From positions 1 to 49,871 of the forward strand of contig JABINZ010000084.1 of assembly GCA_018698135.1 (NCBI GenBank): a DNA stretch of 49,871 nt, in the 5' to 3' direction. The translations under genes and the position numbers were made by a program. Source of the stretch: Bacteroidota bacterium (GTDB lineage: Bacteria > Bacteroidota > Bacteroidia > CAILMK01 > JAAYUY01). Below are positions 3,957 to 12,044 of this stretch, in pieces (positions within the stretch are counted from its first letter, which is position 1; every line of letters starts with the position of its first letter). The notes under the pieces are model-generated. The model saw only the letters and a list, made by a program, of their open reading frames with translations. It ran no database searches and was not told where the DNA came from.

Positions 3957-4686
3957 CGTTTTAATTGTTGATGATGAGTCGTTGGCAAGGGATTTAGTAA
4001 AAACCTATTTGCAGGATATTCCTGATATACAAATTGTTGGCGAATGTGAAAATGGTTTTGAAGCCTTGAATTCTATACAAAAAAACAAGCCTGATCTTGT
4101 TTTTCTGGATGTGCAGATGCCCAAAATAAACGGCTTTGAATTACTGGAAGTATTGGAAGAAAAACCTGCCATTATTTTTACAACAGCATTCGATCAATAC
4201 GCAATTAAAGCGTTTGACATGAGTGCCATTGATTATTTGCTAAAACCATTTTCAAAAGAGCGATTTCTGAAAGCTTTGGAAAAGGCAAAAGAGCAATTAA
4301 CGTTGAAAGAACAGCAACCCAGTCTGGATGATTTAAGGGAAAAAATAGATAACAATAACGAAAGCTTGGATCGGATGGTGGTTCGACATGCAGGTAAAAT
4401 AGTTGTATTAGCTATTGATAGCCTGCAATATTTTGAGGCACAAGACAACTATGTTATGATTTATACTGAAAATGGCAAATATTTGAAGGATAAATCGATG
4501 AAATTCTATGAAGAGCATTTACCGAAGGGAGACTTCATTCGAATTCACAGAAGTTATATTGTGGCCGTGAACCAAATTGAATCTGTTGAGCAATATTCCA
4601 AAGACACGCATTTGGTAATTTTAAAATCAGGTGCAAAATTAAGGACCAGTGCCAGTGGCTATAAAAGGTTAAGAGAGATTTTCTAA
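3943..4686 (+). CDS. LytTR-family response regulator
   Basis: 247 residues. A receiver domain at 1-120 has the acidic pair D10/D11, phosphoacceptor D56 in 'VFLDVQMP' and K101 in 'LLKPF'. Residues about 142-247 form a LytTR DNA-binding domain ('FIRIHRSYIVAVNQIESVEQ'). It should be phosphorylated by the LytS-type kinase it overlaps and control envelope or export genes; targets cannot be read from the window. The frame is open from 3895, but the ATG at 3943 gives the normal receiver start MQKLSVLIVDDE, so I used that one. Confidence 0.9.
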   Translation: MQKLSVLIVDDESLARDLVKTYLQDIPDIQIVGECENGFEALNSIQKNKPDLVFLDVQMPKINGFELLEVLEEKPAIIFTTAFDQYAIKAFDMSAIDYLLKPFSKERFLKALEKAKEQLTLKEQQPSLDDLREKIDNNNESLDRMVVRHAGKIVVLAIDSLQYFEAQDNYVMIYTENGKYLKDKSMKFYEEHLPKGDFIRIHRSYIVAVNQIESVEQYSKDTHLVILKSGAKLRTSASGYKRLREIF

Positions 4687-4794: not shown

Positions 4795-5232
4795 ATGCCA
4801 AGTTTTGTAATTACCGATAAATGTGATGGTTGTAAAGCACAGGATAAAACAGCCTGCCAATACATATGCCCAAACGACCTCATGCTTCTGAATAAAGAAA
4901 CAAATAAAGCTTATAATCGGGCTCCCGAAATGTGTTGGGAGTGTTATAACTGTGTAAAAATTTGTCCAACTCAGGCCGTTGAGGTTAGGGGATATGCCGA
5001 TTTTATGCCTATGGGAGGAGTGGTTCAACCACTTAGAAGTTCTGACTCCATTATGTGGTCGGTTAAGTTTAGGAGTGGAAAGGTCAAGCGATTTAAGTTT
5101 CCTATTCGCACAATTGCTGAAGGAAGTGCTAAGCCAGATGCAGATATGAAAACGGACTCTGAAGATATCAAAAGTCCGATGTTGCGCACAGAGCCTGAAT
5201 CTTTAGGCACATCTGAATTACAAAAATTATAA
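4795..5232 (+). CDS. aprB: Adenylylsulfate (APS) reductase beta subunit, AprB
   Basis: 145 residues, close to the family's usual length of about 150. The N-terminal 60 residues carry two [4Fe-4S] ligand sets: C10-x2-C13-x7-C21-x3-C25P and C47-x2-C50-x2-C53-x3-C57P, in the AprB-specific contexts 'CDGCKAQDKTACQYICPNDL' and 'MCWECYNCVKICP'. The middle has the AprB strand 'IMWSVKFRSGKVKRFKFPIR', and the C-terminal tail is the segment that wraps around AprA in known structures. It passes electrons to the FAD of AprA for APS <=> AMP + sulfite. aprA starts 22 bases downstream. Start ATG 4795 gives the conserved MPSFV. Confidence 0.96.
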   Translation: MPSFVITDKCDGCKAQDKTACQYICPNDLMLLNKETNKAYNRAPEMCWECYNCVKICPTQAVEVRGYADFMPMGGVVQPLRSSDSIMWSVKFRSGKVKRFKFPIRTIAEGSAKPDADMKTDSEDIKSPMLRTEPESLGTSELQKL

Positions 5233-5254
5233 TGATCAATCTGAAATTAGTTTT

Positions 5255-7153
5255 ATGAGTATAATAGATCAATTCGAACAAGTTGAGGTAACAACTGATT
5301 TGCTTATTCTTGGTGGAGGTATGTCAGCCTGTGGTGCTGCTTTTGAAGCAGCTCATTGGGCAAAGAAAAATAATCTGAAAGTGACTGTAGTAGATAAAGC
5401 TGCCATGGACAGAAGCGGTGCAGTGGCTATGGGGCTTTCTGCGATCAACCTTTATCTGGGTTTGAAAGATGGTGAAAATACCATAGAAGATTATGTGAAA
5501 TATGTGAAGACCGACCTCATGGGAATTACCCGTGATGATTTGGTTGCTAACATTGCCCGACATGTAGACGGATCCGTTCATTTGTTCGAAAAATGGGGAT
5601 TGCCCATCTGGAAAGATGACGAAGGGAATTATGTACGTGAAGGTCGCTGGCAGGTCATGATCAATGGTGAATCATACAAAACCATAGTGGCTGAGGCAGC
5701 CAAGAATGCCTTATCCGAAATGGCAGAATATGGTGAATATTATGAAAGAGTATTCATTACCAATCCCATTATGGATGGCGATAGAGTGGCTGGAGCAATT
5801 GGTTTCAGTGTACGTGAAAAGAAAGTTTATATTTTCAAAGCCAAAGCAGTTATTTCAGCCATGGGAGGAGCTGTTCATGTATTTAAACCTCGCAATGTTG
5901 GCGAAGGTTTAGGTCGTAGTTGGTATCCTCCATTTAACTCAGGTGCTTCAACTTATTTTACAATGAAAGCAGGTGCTGAGATGACTTGTCAGGAAGTGCG
6001 TTTTGTTCCTATTCGTTTTAAAGATGGATATGGGCCTGTTGGCGCTTGGTATCTTTTATTCAAAGCCAAATCGACCAATGCTGCTGGTGAAGAATATATG
6101 GAAACCAATAAAGCTGAATTGGAGAAGTGGGGAGTATATGGAAAGTCCAAACCCATTCCAACGAGCCTCCGAAATCACCTGATGTTGATTGATGAACGAA
6201 AAGGAAAGGGTCCTTTTTATATGCAAACAGCAGAAGCCATTAAAAAAATAGCTGAAGAAGAAGGAGATGAAAAAGCGGCCAAAAGAAAACTCAAGCATCT
6301 GGAAAACGAGGCATGGGAAGATTTTCTGGATATGACTATCAGTCAGGCTTTACTTTGGGCATCTACCGATGTTTTCCCAGAAGAAAAAGCATCTGAAATT
6401 GCACCTACAGAACCCTATTTCATTAGCTCACACTCTGGAGCTTCGGGTGCATGGGTAAGTGGGCCAGAAGACATGGAAGGATATCATTGGGGTTATCCAA
6501 ACATGACCACAATTAAAGGACTTTTTGCCTGTGGCGATTCTTCCGGAGCATCCAGTCATAAGTTTTCGTCCGGTTCTTTTACCGAAGGACGAATTGCTGG
6601 AAAAGCAGCTGTTAATTTTATACTCGACAACAATGCGCTTCCAAACTTTGATGATGCTATAATCGAAGAAATGAAAGCAGAAATGCTTAAACCATTAGCA
6701 CTTTTTGAAGAACATAAAGATCATTCTACAGATAAAGATATAAACCCGAACTTCATCAAACCCAAGATGTTTATGTTCCGTTTACAAAAAATAATGGACG
6801 AATATGCAGGTGGAGCCGGTTCCTCCTTTATGACTTCACAAAAGCTTTTAGAAAAAGGCTTGGAGTTTCTCACGTATATGGAAGAAGATTCAACAAAACT
6901 GGCTGCTGAAGATTTGCATGAACTTATGCGGGTATGGGAAAATATACACCGGATGAGCCAAGCTTTTGCTCATGTACATTCAGTGATGTTCAGGGAAGAA
7001 ACACGCTGGCCGGGCTATTATTTGCGCACCGATTTTCCAAACCTTAAAGAGGACGAATGGAAGTGTTATGTCAACTGCAAACGCGATCCTGAAACAGGCG
7101 AATTTGAAGTCTTCAAAAAGGAAATGATAGAGTTGGTGAAGTTGGAAGAGTAA
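5255..7153 (+). CDS. aprA: Adenylylsulfate (APS) reductase alpha subunit, AprA
   Basis: 632 residues. The N-terminal FAD-binding segment is 'LLILGGGMSACGAAFEAA' (16-33). AprA-specific regions are intact: 'FEKWGLPIWK' (111-120), W223 in 'RSWYPPF', 'VRFVPIRFKDGYGPVGAW' with R249, and 'SSHSGASGAWVSGPED' with H393. R249 and H393 match the active-site Arg265 and His398 of Archaeoglobus AprA. The end 'EEWKC...CKRDPETGEFEVF' is also family-specific, so this is not fumarate reductase or L-aspartate oxidase. It reduces APS to sulfite and AMP, or works in reverse in sulfur oxidisers. No sat, qmoABC, aprM or dsr gene is visible, so direction is unresolved. A terminator follows at 7209. Confidence 0.96.
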   Translation: MSIIDQFEQVEVTTDLLILGGGMSACGAAFEAAHWAKKNNLKVTVVDKAAMDRSGAVAMGLSAINLYLGLKDGENTIEDYVKYVKTDLMGITRDDLVANIARHVDGSVHLFEKWGLPIWKDDEGNYVREGRWQVMINGESYKTIVAEAAKNALSEMAEYGEYYERVFITNPIMDGDRVAGAIGFSVREKKVYIFKAKAVISAMGGAVHVFKPRNVGEGLGRSWYPPFNSGASTYFTMKAGAEMTCQEVRFVPIRFKDGYGPVGAWYLLFKAKSTNAAGEEYMETNKAELEKWGVYGKSKPIPTSLRNHLMLIDERKGKGPFYMQTAEAIKKIAEEEGDEKAAKRKLKHLENEAWEDFLDMTISQALLWASTDVFPEEKASEIAPTEPYFISSHSGASGAWVSGPEDMEGYHWGYPNMTTIKGLFACGDSSGASSHKFSSGSFTEGRIAGKAAVNFILDNNALPNFDDAIIEEMKAEMLKPLALFEEHKDHSTDKDINPNFIKPKMFMFRLQKIMDEYAGGAGSSFMTSQKLLEKGLEFLTYMEEDSTKLAAEDLHELMRVWENIHRMSQAFAHVHSVMFREETRWPGYYLRTDFPNLKEDEWKCYVNCKRDPETGEFEVFKKEMIELVKLEE

Positions 7154-7170
7154 GTAATACAAGTAAATAA

Positions 7171-7199
7171 CCCTGACAGGGTTTCAAACCCTGTCAGGG
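7171..7199. repeat. 29-base perfect palindromic repeat, copy 1
   Basis: Arms CCCTGACAGGGTTT and AAACCCTGTCAGGG around a single C. Flanking A7170 and T7200 extend the stem to 15 bases. The identical 29 bases recur at 10466-10494, so the two copies bracket the propeller gene. A stem of this strength after aprA could stop transcription or protect the 3' end. It resembles dispersed REP-like palindromes in Bacteroidota intergenic regions (from memory, not checked). Confidence 0.9.
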
Positions 7200-7208
7200 T
7201 ATATATTC

Positions 7209-7238
7209 AAAAGGGAAGCAGTAATGTTTCCCTTTTTT
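7209..7238 (+). terminator. Rho-independent terminator after aprBA
   Basis: A 9-base stem, AAAAGGGAA (7209-7217) pairing with TTCCCTTTT (7228-7236), with a 10-base loop and a run of six T (7233-7238). It lies 55 bases after the aprA stop and is correctly oriented to end the aprBA transcript. Confidence 0.7.
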
Positions 7239-7572
7239 AATAGTTTAGCAAATAAATAATACTAATTATTCGAATAAATAAATATCATATATATATACAA
7301 ATACAGGCATGAATATTTGTATTGTTTCTGTATAATTGACCTATCTATTTTGGATTTTCTTACATGCTTCAAATTCCCTTCTAAAATCCATCAAAAACAA
7401 CCCTTTGACTTCACCCATTATATAATTACATACATGCTTCATTGTGCTTAAATATAAATTAGTTTTCGACAAATTAATGTCAATTATGCATATCTACATT
7501 TTGTCATATTATTTTTTATAATTATACAATTAATTAATTGGTAATGACGAGGGTTTTAATTAATAATTGATT
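7239..7572. other. AT-rich intergenic region with small repeats before the propeller gene
   Basis: No gene supported. Very AT-rich. It contains a perfect 9-base inverted repeat, ATACAAATA (7295-7303) and TATTTGTAT (7314-7322); an 8-base inverted repeat, TGGATTTT (7351-7358) and AAAATCCA (7383-7390); and an 11-base direct repeat TACATGCTTCA at 7361-7371 and 7431-7441, exactly 70 bases apart. These are candidate regulator sites for the downstream gene; no known operator is recognised. Confidence 0.5.
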
Positions 7573-7580
7573 TAATTTTG
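7573..7580 (+). promoter_or_regulatory. Putative -7 promoter box (TAATTTTG)
   Basis: TAnnTTTG match 22 bases before the ATG at 7602. Its last three bases form the TTG (7578) that would otherwise look like an upstream start codon, so the box argues for ATG 7602. No good -33 box. Confidence 0.45.
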
Positions 7581-7601
7581 AAAAGCACAAAACACACAAT
7601 T

Positions 7602-10457
7602 ATGAAAAAGCTGTACATACTTCATATTATTTTGTTATTTGCACTCAGTATTCATGCACAAAATTGGACTCAAATAACTAAAGCTGTAGCTTCTGACCGA
7701 GCTGAAGATGATCGTTTTGGTTGTAAGGTCGCCATCTCAGGGGATTATGCCATAGTTGGAGCATTCTTAGAAGATGAAGATGCTTCAGGAGGAAATACAG
7801 CTTCATCTGCTGGATCTGCATACATATTTAAGAATATTGCAGGTATCTGGACACAGATACAAAAAGTAGTTGCTTCTGACAGGAATGGATCGGCTAATTT
7901 TGGTAGTTCAGTTGATATTAACGGAGATTATGCAATAATTGGAGCCCCTAATGAAGACTATGATGCTTCCGGTTCAAATTATATTATTAATCCGGGTGTA
8001 GCATACATCTTTAAAAATATTTCAGGAACATGGACTGAGATAAAAAAAATCGTAGCCTCTGATCGTGCACGGGATGAATTTTTTGGGAACTCAGTTTCAA
8101 TTTCTGATAACTATGCAATAGTTGGTGCCTATCAAGAGGATATAAGTACAAGTTATACAACTAATGAAGGTGCAGCATATATCTTCACTAATAATTTAGA
8201 CAGTTGGACACAGTTACAAAAAATCGTTTCTTCTGACAGAGCTTCTGCGGATTTTTTCGGAATCTCAGTATCCATTTCAGGAGATTATATAATTATTGGA
8301 GCACATTATGAGAGTGAAGATGTCCTGGGGGCCAATTCATTAAGCAATGCCGGGTCTGCCTATTTATTTAAAAATAATGCTGGTACTTGGTCTCAAGTGC
8401 AAAAAATCGTAGCTGGTGATAGAGATACTTACGATCAATTTGGAGTATCTGTATCCATTTCAGGAGATTACGCAATTATTGGAGCTCAAACTGAAGATCA
8501 TGATGTCTCTGGAACGAACCTTTTAAGTAATGCCGGATCCGCCTATATATTCAAAAATAATTCTGGTACATGGTCTCAAATACAAAAGATTGTTGCTAAC
8601 GATAGGGGTGCAGGAGATGCTTTTGGTTTTTCCGTTTCTATATCTGGAGATTATGCCTTCATTGGAGCTTGTTATGAAGATGAAAATGCTTCAGGATCTG
8701 CTACACTAAGTGCCGCTGGCTCAGCTTACATTTTCAAAAACAATACAGGAACATGGGCTCAATTTCAAAAAATAGTTTCCTCCGATCGGGCTATTGATGA
8801 TTATTTTGGATATTCAGTAGCCATTTCAGGAGATAATGCAATCTCAGGTGCATATTATGAGGATCATGATGCTTCTGGCCAGAATTACCTATGGGCTGCA
8901 GGTTCTTCCTATATTTTTTCGAATAGTACAACATGGAATGGAAGTACATGGAGTAATGGAACTCCTACTTCATCACAAAGTGCCAATGTTGATGGGGATT
9001 TAACAATTAGTACTGGATTGTCGGCAAATAATTTTACAATTTATCCTGGTGCAGATGTAACCATCAATAGCAGCCAAACACTTACAGTTGCTGGAGATTT
9101 TATCATTAACTCAGATGCTACTTCAACAGGTTCTTATATAAATAACTCTGGAACATTAACTGTTACTGGAGATAAAACAGTTCAACGTTATGTAGATGGT
9201 GGAACGAATGGCTATGTCCATTATGTATCTCCATCAATAAGCGATGCAACTGCTGCAGATTTGCTTGATGAAAACTTGGGTGACTATAATGTTTATAAAT
9301 ATGTACCAGGAGGTTCTCCAGTTTGGTCAAGGGTTTTCTCATCTACCTCATTGGGAGCAGGTAGTGGATATTGTGTAGCTTATGACAACAATAAAACCAT
9401 TGTATTTTCAGGTACATTAAATGATGGCAATGTAAATGTAACCGTGAGCAATAGTGGAACTGCCTATAATTTAGTGGGCAATCCCTATCCATCTCGTTTA
9501 GATGCTGATGCGTTTGTTACTGATGGAGATAACTCTGAGATTAGTGGAGCCATATATTATTGGGCTGATGATCATACTGCAGGTAGTGGTTATTCTACTG
9601 CTGATTATGCAACATGGACTACAACAGGAAGTACCGGAAGTAGCGGTGGTGGAACTTCAACTGCTGCAAATGATTATGTTGAAGTTGGGCAAGGCTTTTT
9701 TGTATTGGCAAGTTCAGCAGGAACTCTAATTTTTAAAAACAGTCATCGTGTTCATACAGCATCTGCTGACTTTTATACTCCAGCTATTAATGAAGTACAG
9801 CGCTTGTGGTTAAAGCTCACCAATAATGAATATGATTACTCCAATGATATTTTAATTGGATTCCTTGAAGAAGCCACAAATGATTATGATAGATTGTATG
9901 ATGCAGTTAAGAATCAGGGAAATGAAAACCTTTCATTCTATTCTATTATCGAAAATGATGACAGAAACTTTGTCATTCAAGGTTTACCTGTTCCAACATC
10001 AGAAAAGGAAATTAAGTTGGGATATTTTGCAAAACAGGCTGGGATCTATACGATTGATATTGATAATATGGAAAGATTTGATGGCTATAGCATTGTATTG
10101 GTTGACAAAGAAATGAATATAACGGTCAATCTTTTGGAGACAGATTATAGCTTCACAACAGCAAGTGGTGAGTTTGATGAAAGATTCAGTTTGTTTATTT
10201 CAGCCAAGTCTTCTTCAGTTGAAGAAGCGAATCAGGAAGTAAAAATCTATTCCTCCGAAAACCTGATTTATTTAAATATTCCTCAGGATGAAAATTATTG
10301 CATTTCAGTTTATGATATGCTCGGTAAAAAAGTATATTCATCCATACCTTCCAGTATTGGTTTTCAATCGATTGATTTAGGCCTGAAAACTGGATTCTAC
10401 CTGGTTAAGGTGAAGAATGAGACTAGCGAATACACAGAAAAAGTTTTTTTGAAATAA
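7602..10457 (+). CDS. Secreted seven-bladed FG-GAP-type propeller protein, T9SS cargo
   Basis: 951 residues from ATG 7602. A signal peptide (MKKLYILHIILLFALSIHAQ) is followed by seven tandem repeats of about 60 residues (DNA about 7669-8937). Consensus parts are 'KIVASDRA..D.FG.SVSISGD', 'YAIIGA..ED.DASG' and 'AGSAYIFKN..GTW'. Seven units are what a closed integrin-like beta-propeller needs. Next come a strand-rich region ('VDGDLTISTGLSANNFTIYP'), a middle domain seen in other large Bacteroidota surface proteins, and a type-A T9SS sorting domain at the C-terminus ('GFYLVKVKNETSEYTEKVFL'). Probably exported by T9SS to the cell surface as a binding or adhesion protein; the ligand is unknown. 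Flanked by identical 29-base palindromes. Confidence 0.85.
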   Translation: MKKLYILHIILLFALSIHAQNWTQITKAVASDRAEDDRFGCKVAISGDYAIVGAFLEDEDASGGNTASSAGSAYIFKNIAGIWTQIQKVVASDRNGSANFGSSVDINGDYAIIGAPNEDYDASGSNYIINPGVAYIFKNISGTWTEIKKIVASDRARDEFFGNSVSISDNYAIVGAYQEDISTSYTTNEGAAYIFTNNLDSWTQLQKIVSSDRASADFFGISVSISGDYIIIGAHYESEDVLGANSLSNAGSAYLFKNNAGTWSQVQKIVAGDRDTYDQFGVSVSISGDYAIIGAQTEDHDVSGTNLLSNAGSAYIFKNNSGTWSQIQKIVANDRGAGDAFGFSVSISGDYAFIGACYEDENASGSATLSAAGSAYIFKNNTGTWAQFQKIVSSDRAIDDYFGYSVAISGDNAISGAYYEDHDASGQNYLWAAGSSYIFSNSTTWNGSTWSNGTPTSSQSANVDGDLTISTGLSANNFTIYPGADVTINSSQTLTVAGDFIINSDATSTGSYINNSGTLTVTGDKTVQRYVDGGTNGYVHYVSPSISDATAADLLDENLGDYNVYKYVPGGSPVWSRVFSSTSLGAGSGYCVAYDNNKTIVFSGTLNDGNVNVTVSNSGTAYNLVGNPYPSRLDADAFVTDGDNSEISGAIYYWADDHTAGSGYSTADYATWTTTGSTGSSGGGTSTAANDYVEVGQGFFVLASSAGTLIFKNSHRVHTASADFYTPAINEVQRLWLKLTNNEYDYSNDILIGFLEEATNDYDRLYDAVKNQGNENLSFYSIIENDDRNFVIQGLPVPTSEKEIKLGYFAKQAGIYTIDIDNMERFDGYSIVLVDKEMNITVNLLETDYSFTTASGEFDERFSLFISAKSSSVEEANQEVKIYSSENLIYLNIPQDENYCISVYDMLGKKVYSSIPSSIGFQSIDLGLKTGFYLVKVKNETSEYTEKVFLK

Positions 10458-10465
10458 TACAACAA

Positions 10466-10494
10466 CCCTGACAGGGTTTCAAACCCTGTCAGGG
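10466..10494. repeat. 29-base perfect palindromic repeat, copy 2
   Basis: Identical to 7171-7199 and starting 8 bases after the stop codon of the propeller gene, so probably its transcription terminator or mRNA 3' end. The flanking bases are only weakly similar (both copies preceded by 'AA' and closely followed by AT-rich DNA), so the repeated unit is the palindrome alone. Confidence 0.9.
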
Positions 10495-10619: not shown

Positions 10620-12044
10620 ATGCGTCACGAAAGATCACAAACCAAAACAATAGTAACCCTTGGGCCTGCCTGCTCTAACAAAGAAGTCCTTCGACAAATG
10701 TTCATGGAAGGAGTGGATGTTTGTCGCTTGAATTTTTCGCATGGTAGCCACAAAGATCATTTAGCCAACATCCAAAACATATTGGAATTGGATAAAGAGC
10801 TGAATGCAAATGTGGCTGTGCTTGCCGATTTGCAAGGACCAAAGCTTCGAATTGGTGAGTTTAAGGAGGCCTATGTTGTTCTTAAAGAAGGAGATGTTGT
10901 TTCTTTTGTAACACAAGAGTGTTATTGCACGCAGGATCGTTTATACATGACTTATAAAAATTTTCCAAAAGATGTGAAAATTGATGAGTATATTTTAATT
11001 GATGATGGAAAAATTCGTTTGAAGGTACTTTCAACCAATCAGGATGATGAGGTGAAAGCGGTTGTTTTGAATGGCGGAAAATTGTCTTCCAAGAAAGGAG
11101 TTAACTTGCCTGATACACAGGTTTCTCTTCCATGCTTAACAGAAAAAGATTTAGCCGATTTACATTTTGCACTTGATCATGGTGTAGATTGGATTGCGTT
11201 ATCTTTCGTCAGAAATGCCAACGATGTCAAAGAGTTAAAAAGAATAATCAAAGAAAGAGGCAAAGAGGTTTCAGTTGTTGCCAAAATTGAAAAACCAGAG
11301 GCCTTAGATGATATTGACAGAATCATAGATGTGGCAGATGCCATCATGATAGCACGTGGAGATTTAGGCGTGGAAGTATCCTTTGATAAGGTGCCTATTA
11401 TTCAAAAAGACATTATCAAGAAATGCATTGAGCAAGCTACACCTGTTATTGTAGCCACGCAAATGATGGAAAGTATGATCACTAATTTTGAACCTACTAG
11501 GGCAGAAGCTACTGATGTGGCCAATGCGGTTGTTGATGGAGCAGATGCTTTGATGCTTAGCGGTGAAACTTCTGTGGGAAAATATCCGATTGAAGCCATT
11601 CGGAATATGCAAAAAATTATTGATTACACTGAGGAAAACGGCTTTGAATACAACCGTAAAATTGAGCATAACGATATCAAGCGCTTTTTGGCTGATTCGA
11701 TGTGTGATGCTGCCCGAAAACTTACCGACCGTACAAAAGCACATGCTATAATTACATTTACGCATTCAGGCTATTCTGCTTTCCGTATCTCCAGTTATCG
11801 ACCTAAAGCATCACTTTTTGTATTTACACAAAATAGAGTATTGCTGAGAAGAATGTCATTGGTTTGGGGAGTCCGATCCTATTTAATGGAAAAAACAGGA
11901 AATGCTGATGAATCCATTCAGTTTACAATTGATTATTTGAAAGGACGAAATTTGATACGTGAGCGCGATATTGTTGTCCATATTGGAAGCATACCGCTAG
12001 ATGAAAAAGGCAAAACCAACATGGTGAAACTAAGCTTTGCCTGA
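10620..12044 (+). CDS. pyk: Pyruvate kinase
   Basis: 474 residues from ATG 10620 (MRHERSQTKTIVTLGPAC). Family motifs in order: the substrate/K+ loop 'RLNFSHGSH', 'LADLQGPKLRIGEF', the catalytic lysine segment 'VVAKIEKPEAL', the Mg2+ motif 'IMIARGDLGVEV', 'VIVATQMMESM' and 'MLSGETSVGKYP', then a C-terminal regulatory-type domain. It converts phosphoenolpyruvate + ADP to pyruvate + ATP at the end of glycolysis, in the cytoplasm. The frame is open from 10524, but those 32 residues are unlike the family and precede the promoter box. Monocistronic by spacing. Confidence 0.97.
   Translation: MRHERSQTKTIVTLGPACSNKEVLRQMFMEGVDVCRLNFSHGSHKDHLANIQNILELDKELNANVAVLADLQGPKLRIGEFKEAYVVLKEGDVVSFVTQECYCTQDRLYMTYKNFPKDVKIDEYILIDDGKIRLKVLSTNQDDEVKAVVLNGGKLSSKKGVNLPDTQVSLPCLTEKDLADLHFALDHGVDWIALSFVRNANDVKELKRIIKERGKEVSVVAKIEKPEALDDIDRIIDVADAIMIARGDLGVEVSFDKVPIIQKDIIKKCIEQATPVIVATQMMESMITNFEPTRAEATDVANAVVDGADALMLSGETSVGKYPIEAIRNMQKIIDYTEENGFEYNRKIEHNDIKRFLADSMCDAARKLTDRTKAHAIITFTHSGYSAFRISSYRPKASLFVFTQNRVLLRRMSLVWGVRSYLMEKTGNADESIQFTIDYLKGRNLIRERDIVVHIGSIPLDEKGKTNMVKLSFA

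Follow-up and report, generated by a model that had tools for sequence, protein, structure and literature searches.

The window analysed here, a stretch of 49,871 nucleotides from a Bacteroidota bacterium (contig JABINZ010000084.1), carries two copies of a 29-base palindrome, CCCTGACAGGGTTTCAAACCCTGTCAGGG, at 7171-7199 and 10466-10494, one on either side of a gene for a secreted propeller protein. We consider it very likely that these are non-autonomous copies of an element resembling the repetitive extragenic palindromes (REPs), that they arrived by separate insertions, and that their likely partner is a REP-associated tyrosine transposase (RAYT) encoded elsewhere in the same genome (G000), at positions 4365-4985 of contig C24. 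Judged by its sequences, the system to which they belong is a REP/RAYT system that does without the GTAG foot by which REPs are commonly defined; in PMC8266576, that foot is given a role in hairpin recognition and, in some systems, in the choice of cleavage site.

A dispersed family of palindromes

There is no difference between the two window copies, as the first-pass annotation had noted, and a 29-base palindrome appeared in none of 100 dinucleotide shuffles of the window. The arms match perfectly, the central C being the sole exception, and each copy, when folded as single-stranded RNA, gives a stem of 13 bp closed by a 3-nt loop. Outside the element, the flanks of the two copies have only an AA on the left in common.

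Within the source genome (4.2 Mb in 287 contigs), nine places on seven contigs (C24, C78, C81, C84, C166, C198 and C279) match the 29-mer with three mismatches or fewer: three are identical, three have one mismatch, two have two and one has three. The third exact copy lies on a separate contig, C279, and a looser pattern raises the number to 11, the two extra copies having no assigned location. Across these sequences, identity of the window pair looks like the norm for the palindrome family and not like the mark of a private duplication; because of this, the recent pairwise duplication or gene conversion that strict identity had at first suggested is needless. Clusters of related palindromes (ACCTATCTGGTTGAATAAAACCTGATAGGT) also occur on contigs C70, C121, C161 and C261, and on the first three of these the clusters adjoin another repeat, ACCTAACAGGTGGCC...TCCTGTTAGGT.

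A RAYT gene between two copies of the palindrome

Copies at 4312 and 4986 of C24 bracket the RAYT gene, the kind of gene that the first-pass annotation had proposed to look for. Together with the dispersal of the copies and like pairings in other genomes, this bears out the mobile REP-like element that it had offered as one option.

Several lines of evidence point to the identity of these transposases. Three of the RAYT proteins match NCBIfam NF047646 at E-values of 7.9e-11 to 1.3e-17, scoring below that family's curated cut-off, and the cut-off of PF01797 is likewise not reached. When a 19-row RAYT profile was compared with the PDB, the sole match was 4er8 (E 8.7e-7), the structure of E. coli TnpA-REP bound to a REP hairpin. 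A structural model of a related RAYT (L203, from a Bacteroidales metagenome-assembled genome; eight alignment rows; mean predicted local distance difference test (pLDDT) score 77.9) has a predicted TnpA-REP-like fold, with 4er8 as its top Foldseek match (E 1.4e-7) and IS608 (2.6e-3) and ISDra2 (3.1e-3) at lower ranks. Alongside this modelled fold, the proteins carry an HUH and single-tyrosine (Y1) core: NHFH is invariant in all 19 aligned rows, and the tyrosine ahead of IHxNP is nearly so. YIHxNP predominates there, with YIH[QN]NP in two of the 19 rows and an exact YIxNNP in 1/19 rows of alignment A2 and 3/8 of alignment A3. In the wider set beyond the 19 rows, some RAYTs have NHLH (two proteins), NHYH or DHFH. 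Trp94 of 4er8, which lies in the GTAG-reading region, aligns with phenylalanine in 18 of the 19 RAYTs and with leucine in one, and a glutamine follows in 1/19; an SS motif is present in the tail.

Palindrome and transposase also keep company across genomes. In a sample of 395 genomes of the class, G000 being included in both counts, the palindrome occurs in 21 and a RAYT in 110; a RAYT match is found in 19 of the 21 palindrome genomes vs 91 of the 374 others (Fisher p 1e-9, uncorrected for kinship and with some of the RAYT matches distant). At least 10 of the 21 genomes have a copy inside a RAYT gene or within about 133 bp of one. The second RAYT of G000 (C204) has a palindrome family of its own, ACCTAAC(A/T)GGT, and two RAYTs of another genome, G018, likewise go with different families.

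Hairpin design without a GTAG foot

We examined the 30 best-scoring RAYT loci of the class for hairpins with a stem of at least 13. Such hairpins, 61 in all, occur somewhere in 28 of the loci, and within 400 bp of the RAYT in 26 (apex GTT...AAC in 24, CCCTG type in 7). Among control loci there was a hairpin in 1/21 and a GTT...AAC apex in 0/21; originally 5/25 controls had a hairpin, four of which were dropped as being window copies or as having been fetched for the palindrome. The arms vary from locus to locus (CCCTGACAGGG, CCTTCAAGG, CCTGCAAGG, CTTTCCGAAAG and others), and what recurs despite this is a length of about 33 and, in many cases, an arm that is almost self-palindromic.

The stem itself bears the mark of paired change. 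As the search pattern fixes most letters, only its free positions are informative: over 111 sites, positions 2/28 are CG or TA in all 111, 6/24 are paired in 107 and 10/20 in 108, each exceeding every one of 2,000 shuffles (which do not preserve kinship). Positions 14/16 are paired in 55 of the 111, no more than the shuffle mean of 64, and the loop is therefore of three bases. By this pattern, the palindrome is maintained by paired change.

A wider set comprises 125 sites from 21 genomes, 50 of them from a single genome, G141. A GT[AG]G 5' foot occurs at just one of the 125 sites, on either strand; the commonest feet are TTAC, ATAC and ATAA, with AA/TT or AC/GT predominating by clade. The element is 29 nt long, or 33 nt where the AA/TT foot is present, and copy numbers (nine in G000, 57 in G141, 44 in Brocadia carolinensis) are those of a short dispersed repeat.

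We rejected insertion into existing hairpins as a rule: for 120 sites, matching outside the foot came to 343 vs a shuffled mean of 370, and one base further out to 342 vs 354 (flanks re-paired within genomes). A few copies are nevertheless centred exactly in a longer inverted repeat (L122:1525, L033:7651 and L032:7637, in genomes G098 and G016), with 7 to 15 pairs past the foot; counted from the 29-mer, foot included, there are 17 pairs in L122 and 11 in L033. In G141, four copies about 220 bp apart, some with similar flanks, form a small tandem array (L130:1512-2206).

Copies in frame within genes

Thirteen of the 125 sites lie inside open frames, one of which (L123) is short and doubtful as a coding frame. 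The in-frame copies are found in RAYTs, in cas1 of two genomes, in an IcmF-like mutase and in adhesins. Within RAYT genes they fall between HUH and tyrosine (in G018, protein P0002; in G064; and in L203), and in the L203 model the palindrome peptide occupies a low-confidence stretch between the HUH strand and a long helix. Each of the two Cas1 proteins has 13 extra residues at the palindrome relative to 4zkj, and the mutase has about 14 relative to 4xc6. The two cas1 genes (L050:1115-2047 and L124:1985-2950) belong to genomes of different families, and the position of the copy within the protein differs between them.

A different arrangement is seen in G018, where L024:2-7321 encodes SprB/PKD-like adhesin repeats (named by eye) with two palindrome types. 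Ten residues separate W(S/T) from the next conserved position in nine plain and in six palindrome-bearing repeats alike, which suggests that these copies arose by replacement instead of addition, or were trimmed later. Adhesin flanks are also joined at the palindrome in different orientation on two contigs of this genome (L026:49-77 and L024:51-79), either by inversion or through an assembly error.

Proposed mechanism and what weighs against it

By analogy with TnpA-REP and the IS200/IS605 family, the single-stranded element would fold into a hairpin of 13 to 15 bp closed by a 3-nt loop, which the HUH-Y1 transposase would bind, cutting beside its foot and helping copies to settle at other sites. 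In the window, the two copies would thereby have come as separate insertions just past the stop codons of aprA and the propeller gene, and the RAYT on C24 is likely to be the one that served them.

A number of results count against this account. Two of the 21 palindrome genomes gave no RAYT match, and that of a third, G023, is weak (1.2e-9); a further RAYT of G000 itself (C255, L183) has no hairpin nearby, and at four of the 30 best loci no hairpin with a stem of at least 13 lies within 400 bp of the RAYT. Among 118 stretches fetched from a wider genome collection, a RAYT is present in only 14 (in 12 cases no more than 70 bp from a copy); the KSB1 genome, with 36 copies, has a single RAYT match, at 4.7e-10, and Marinilabilia rubra, with three copies, gave none. 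No precise empty site for the window copies was found, and the palindrome peptides of the G018 adhesins, which replace an equal number of residues, are not accounted for by simple insertion. Nor is there support for the idea that arm type follows RAYT phylogeny: on a tree of 34 RAYTs, those with palindromes of the CCCTGWCAGGG type do not form a group (eight changes, against 8.4 on average over 300 shuffles), with coarse labels, 28 of the 34 rows counted (unlabelled rows left out), and G078 (CCCTGACTGGG) and G064 (CCCTGTCAGAG) scored as the CCCTGWCAGGG type. As for the sister genome G001, of the same genus, it has only two altered palindromes and one weak RAYT match, on its contig C78 (3.3e-11), and no such hairpin lies near its two RAYT fragments.

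Perhaps a bolder proposal deserves mention, one to which we give somewhat less than even weight: that these elements represent a distinct, GTAG-free branch of REPs, in which a transposase without the tryptophan reads a 33-nt element with two near self-palindromic arms and a GTT-YNR-AAC apex. Such an element might enter genes in frame, including a loop of its own transposase, in which copies persist, and so supply ready-made peptides to host proteins (Cas1, B12 mutase, adhesins); the element itself is present in at least three phyla. In-frame entry would be possible because 33 nt make 11 codons and two of the three frames are open.

A large GTAG-less family, with transposases lacking the reader tryptophan, makes the choice of cleavage site without a GTAG guide open to direct test, and brings in-frame palindromes to light in conserved proteins of Bacteroidota.

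Cassette, terminator or insertion sequence

The surroundings of the two copies, on which the alternative readings bear, are as follows.

5255-7153, plus strand: FAD-binding protein beside aprB, read as aprA (APS reductase alpha subunit; name inferred)
7171-7199, no strand assigned: palindrome copy 1, a GTAG-less REP-like element beginning 17 nt past the aprA stop
7209-7236, plus strand: separate 12-bp hairpin leading into a T-run, read from the sequence as the likely intrinsic terminator of aprBA
7602-10457, plus strand: enclosed gene, with FG-GAP_2 propeller and Por_Secre_tail (type IX secretion signal) by domain matches
10466-10494, no strand assigned: palindrome copy 2, the same as copy 1, 8 nt past the propeller stop
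10620-12044, plus strand: pyruvate kinase

For the enclosed gene, the ATG at 7602 was taken from the sequence, and the searches began at 7605.

With a single surface-protein gene enclosed by two identical copies, one could imagine recombination between them excising, inverting or swapping it as a movable cassette, as the first-pass annotation had envisaged. In G001, 450 bp past aprA contain neither palindrome nor propeller gene, and in G018 tandem adhesin repeats each bear a palindrome, which shows that DNA near such repeats does get rearranged. However, a repeat of 29 bp is short for homologous recombination, and random placement of nine copies in G000 brings two of them to within 3.3 kb of each other in 5.7% of the trials; the bracketing of the propeller gene is probably coincidence. 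The only other close pair seen in G000 brackets the RAYT, the located copies adjoin unrelated genes, and no located palindrome accompanies the propeller or sorting-tail matches on other contigs. Nor does G001 give any sign of a clean loss of this segment alone: its aprA and pyruvate kinase lie on separate contigs, both of which end there and thereby limit the comparison, no DNA match to the propeller region occurs in the 1.46 kb upstream of pyruvate kinase, and past aprA the palindrome is absent but the DNA diverges from the stop codon on. The window neighbourhood was matched in none of the relatives searched, and the C166 copy, between two Rrf2 genes, lies at a site that is not syntenic in G001. 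We regard the cassette as barely credible. A role in transcription termination or in stabilising mRNA 3' ends, perhaps as a sideline of a mobile element, fares a little differently, as both copies lie 8-17 nt downstream of stop codons, the 125 sites have a median distance of 26 nt to a gene 3' end and 51 nt to a 5' end, and convergent gaps outnumber divergent ones by 22 to 8 (genes called from long open frames). A consensus scan found both window copies terminator-like, but on the minus strand; the genes flanking them are on the plus strand, where no T-run follows either copy, and copy 1 is followed by the separate T-run hairpin (itself not among the sites of that scan). Across the wider set, the orientation bias against background gaps gives p 0.056, at least five consecutive T within 10 nt on either side occur at only 11 of the 125 sites, and the 13 sites within open frames sit ill with such a role. 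The scan yields five terminator-like sites where 2.5 are expected. We think it unlikely that the palindromes are kept for this purpose; they could yet have some part in mRNA stability. The first-pass annotation had reasoned that copies after hundreds of unrelated genes would make the bracketing coincidental and the element a general terminator or REP; the former is probable, the located copies lying beside unrelated genes, and the general terminator role is weak.

A third alternative would have the palindromes as solo ends or miniature inverted-repeat transposable elements (MITEs) left by an ordinary insertion sequence of the IS200/IS605 type. The HUH-Y1 fold is indeed common to RAYTs and IS200 transposases, and IS608 and ISDra2 do appear in the lower Foldseek ranks. 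Yet both comparisons with the PDB lead to TnpA-REP, as top match by fold and as sole match by sequence profile, different RAYTs in G000 and in G018 have different palindrome families, and in-frame palindromes in the RAYT gene agree with TnpA-REP subclass 2.4 as portrayed in PMC6006769; we therefore hold an ordinary insertion sequence to be very unlikely. Palindrome pairs of this kind should, in our view, not be taken as cassettes or terminators, and we return to the REP-like element and its RAYT.

Comparison with known REP systems

Like REPs and their TnpA-REP partners (REPtrons), these are short dispersed hairpins, mostly intergenic, that flank an HUH-Y1 transposase gene, and several RAYTs of one genome each have their own element family (two in G000, two in G018). 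Unlike them, GT[AG]G is all but missing from the 125 sites, none of the 19 aligned RAYTs has a counterpart of Trp94, and each arm is nearly self-palindromic (CCCTG-A-CAGGG).

The comparison can be narrowed using PMC6006769. There, GTAG reading is tied to the WQ region, and GTAG-less structures are reported from subclass 2.6 as well as from class 3. Subclass 2.4 (Bertels RAYT group 4) resembles the present system in its occurrence in Bacteroidetes and other phyla, in a variable loop and in its in-frame tnpA copies, described as a unique feature of that subclass; it differs in having GT[AG]G REPs (also with a double foot) and a WQ motif, neither of which is found here. YIxNNP, the tyrosine motif given for subclass 2.4, is exact in the few rows counted above. 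Subclass 2.6 (Bertels RAYT group 5), mostly from Bacteroidetes, shares the atypical GT[AG]G-less structures and the SS motif after the core, but is described with weaker structures, WQ, NH[LIV]H and YIH[QN]NP, whereas we find 13-15-bp stems, no WQ, NHFH, YIH[QN]NP in only two of the 19 rows, and in-frame tnpA copies. The present RAYTs combine traits of both and fit neither list fully; the elements may overlap with the structures of subclass 2.6.

A further likeness, palindromes in frame within protein genes, is to the Rickettsia palindromic elements (RPEs), which are tagged with CGTC according to PMC3733652. None of the 15 commonest feet of our elements is CGTC, and these accompany a RAYT. In the open-access library searched, we found no account of this element among the papers listed and none pairing Brocadia with REP; searches with the arm sequences returned only papers unrelated by title. 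The window has no Rfam match at or above a family's gathering score.

Spread beyond the genome and neighbouring genes

A pattern scan of the genome collection returned at least 118 stretches, with exact matches in Bacteroidota, Planctomycetes (Brocadia and Kuenenia) and KSB1; no viral contig matched the exact pattern. Besides the genomes already named, copies number 26 in Brocadia pituitae, 16 in Kuenenia hertensis and 12 in Flavobacterium endophyticum. RAYT matches in a set of ten named genomes include those at 1.6e-98 (the genome of L203), 1.1e-34 (B. pituitae), 1.2e-18 (Kuenenia) and 1.8e-15 (B. carolinensis). At the low end of this range stand the KSB1 and M. rubra results given above. The RAYT partner outside Bacteroidota is therefore uncertain.

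Upstream of copy 1, the APS-reductase pair aprBA spans 4795-7153, the beta subunit being recognised through PF12139 and the alpha subunit by its position and FAD domain. Within the genus, G001 has the alpha subunit too, at 87% identity; a search of 11 other relatives gave no match to it at E 1e-3.

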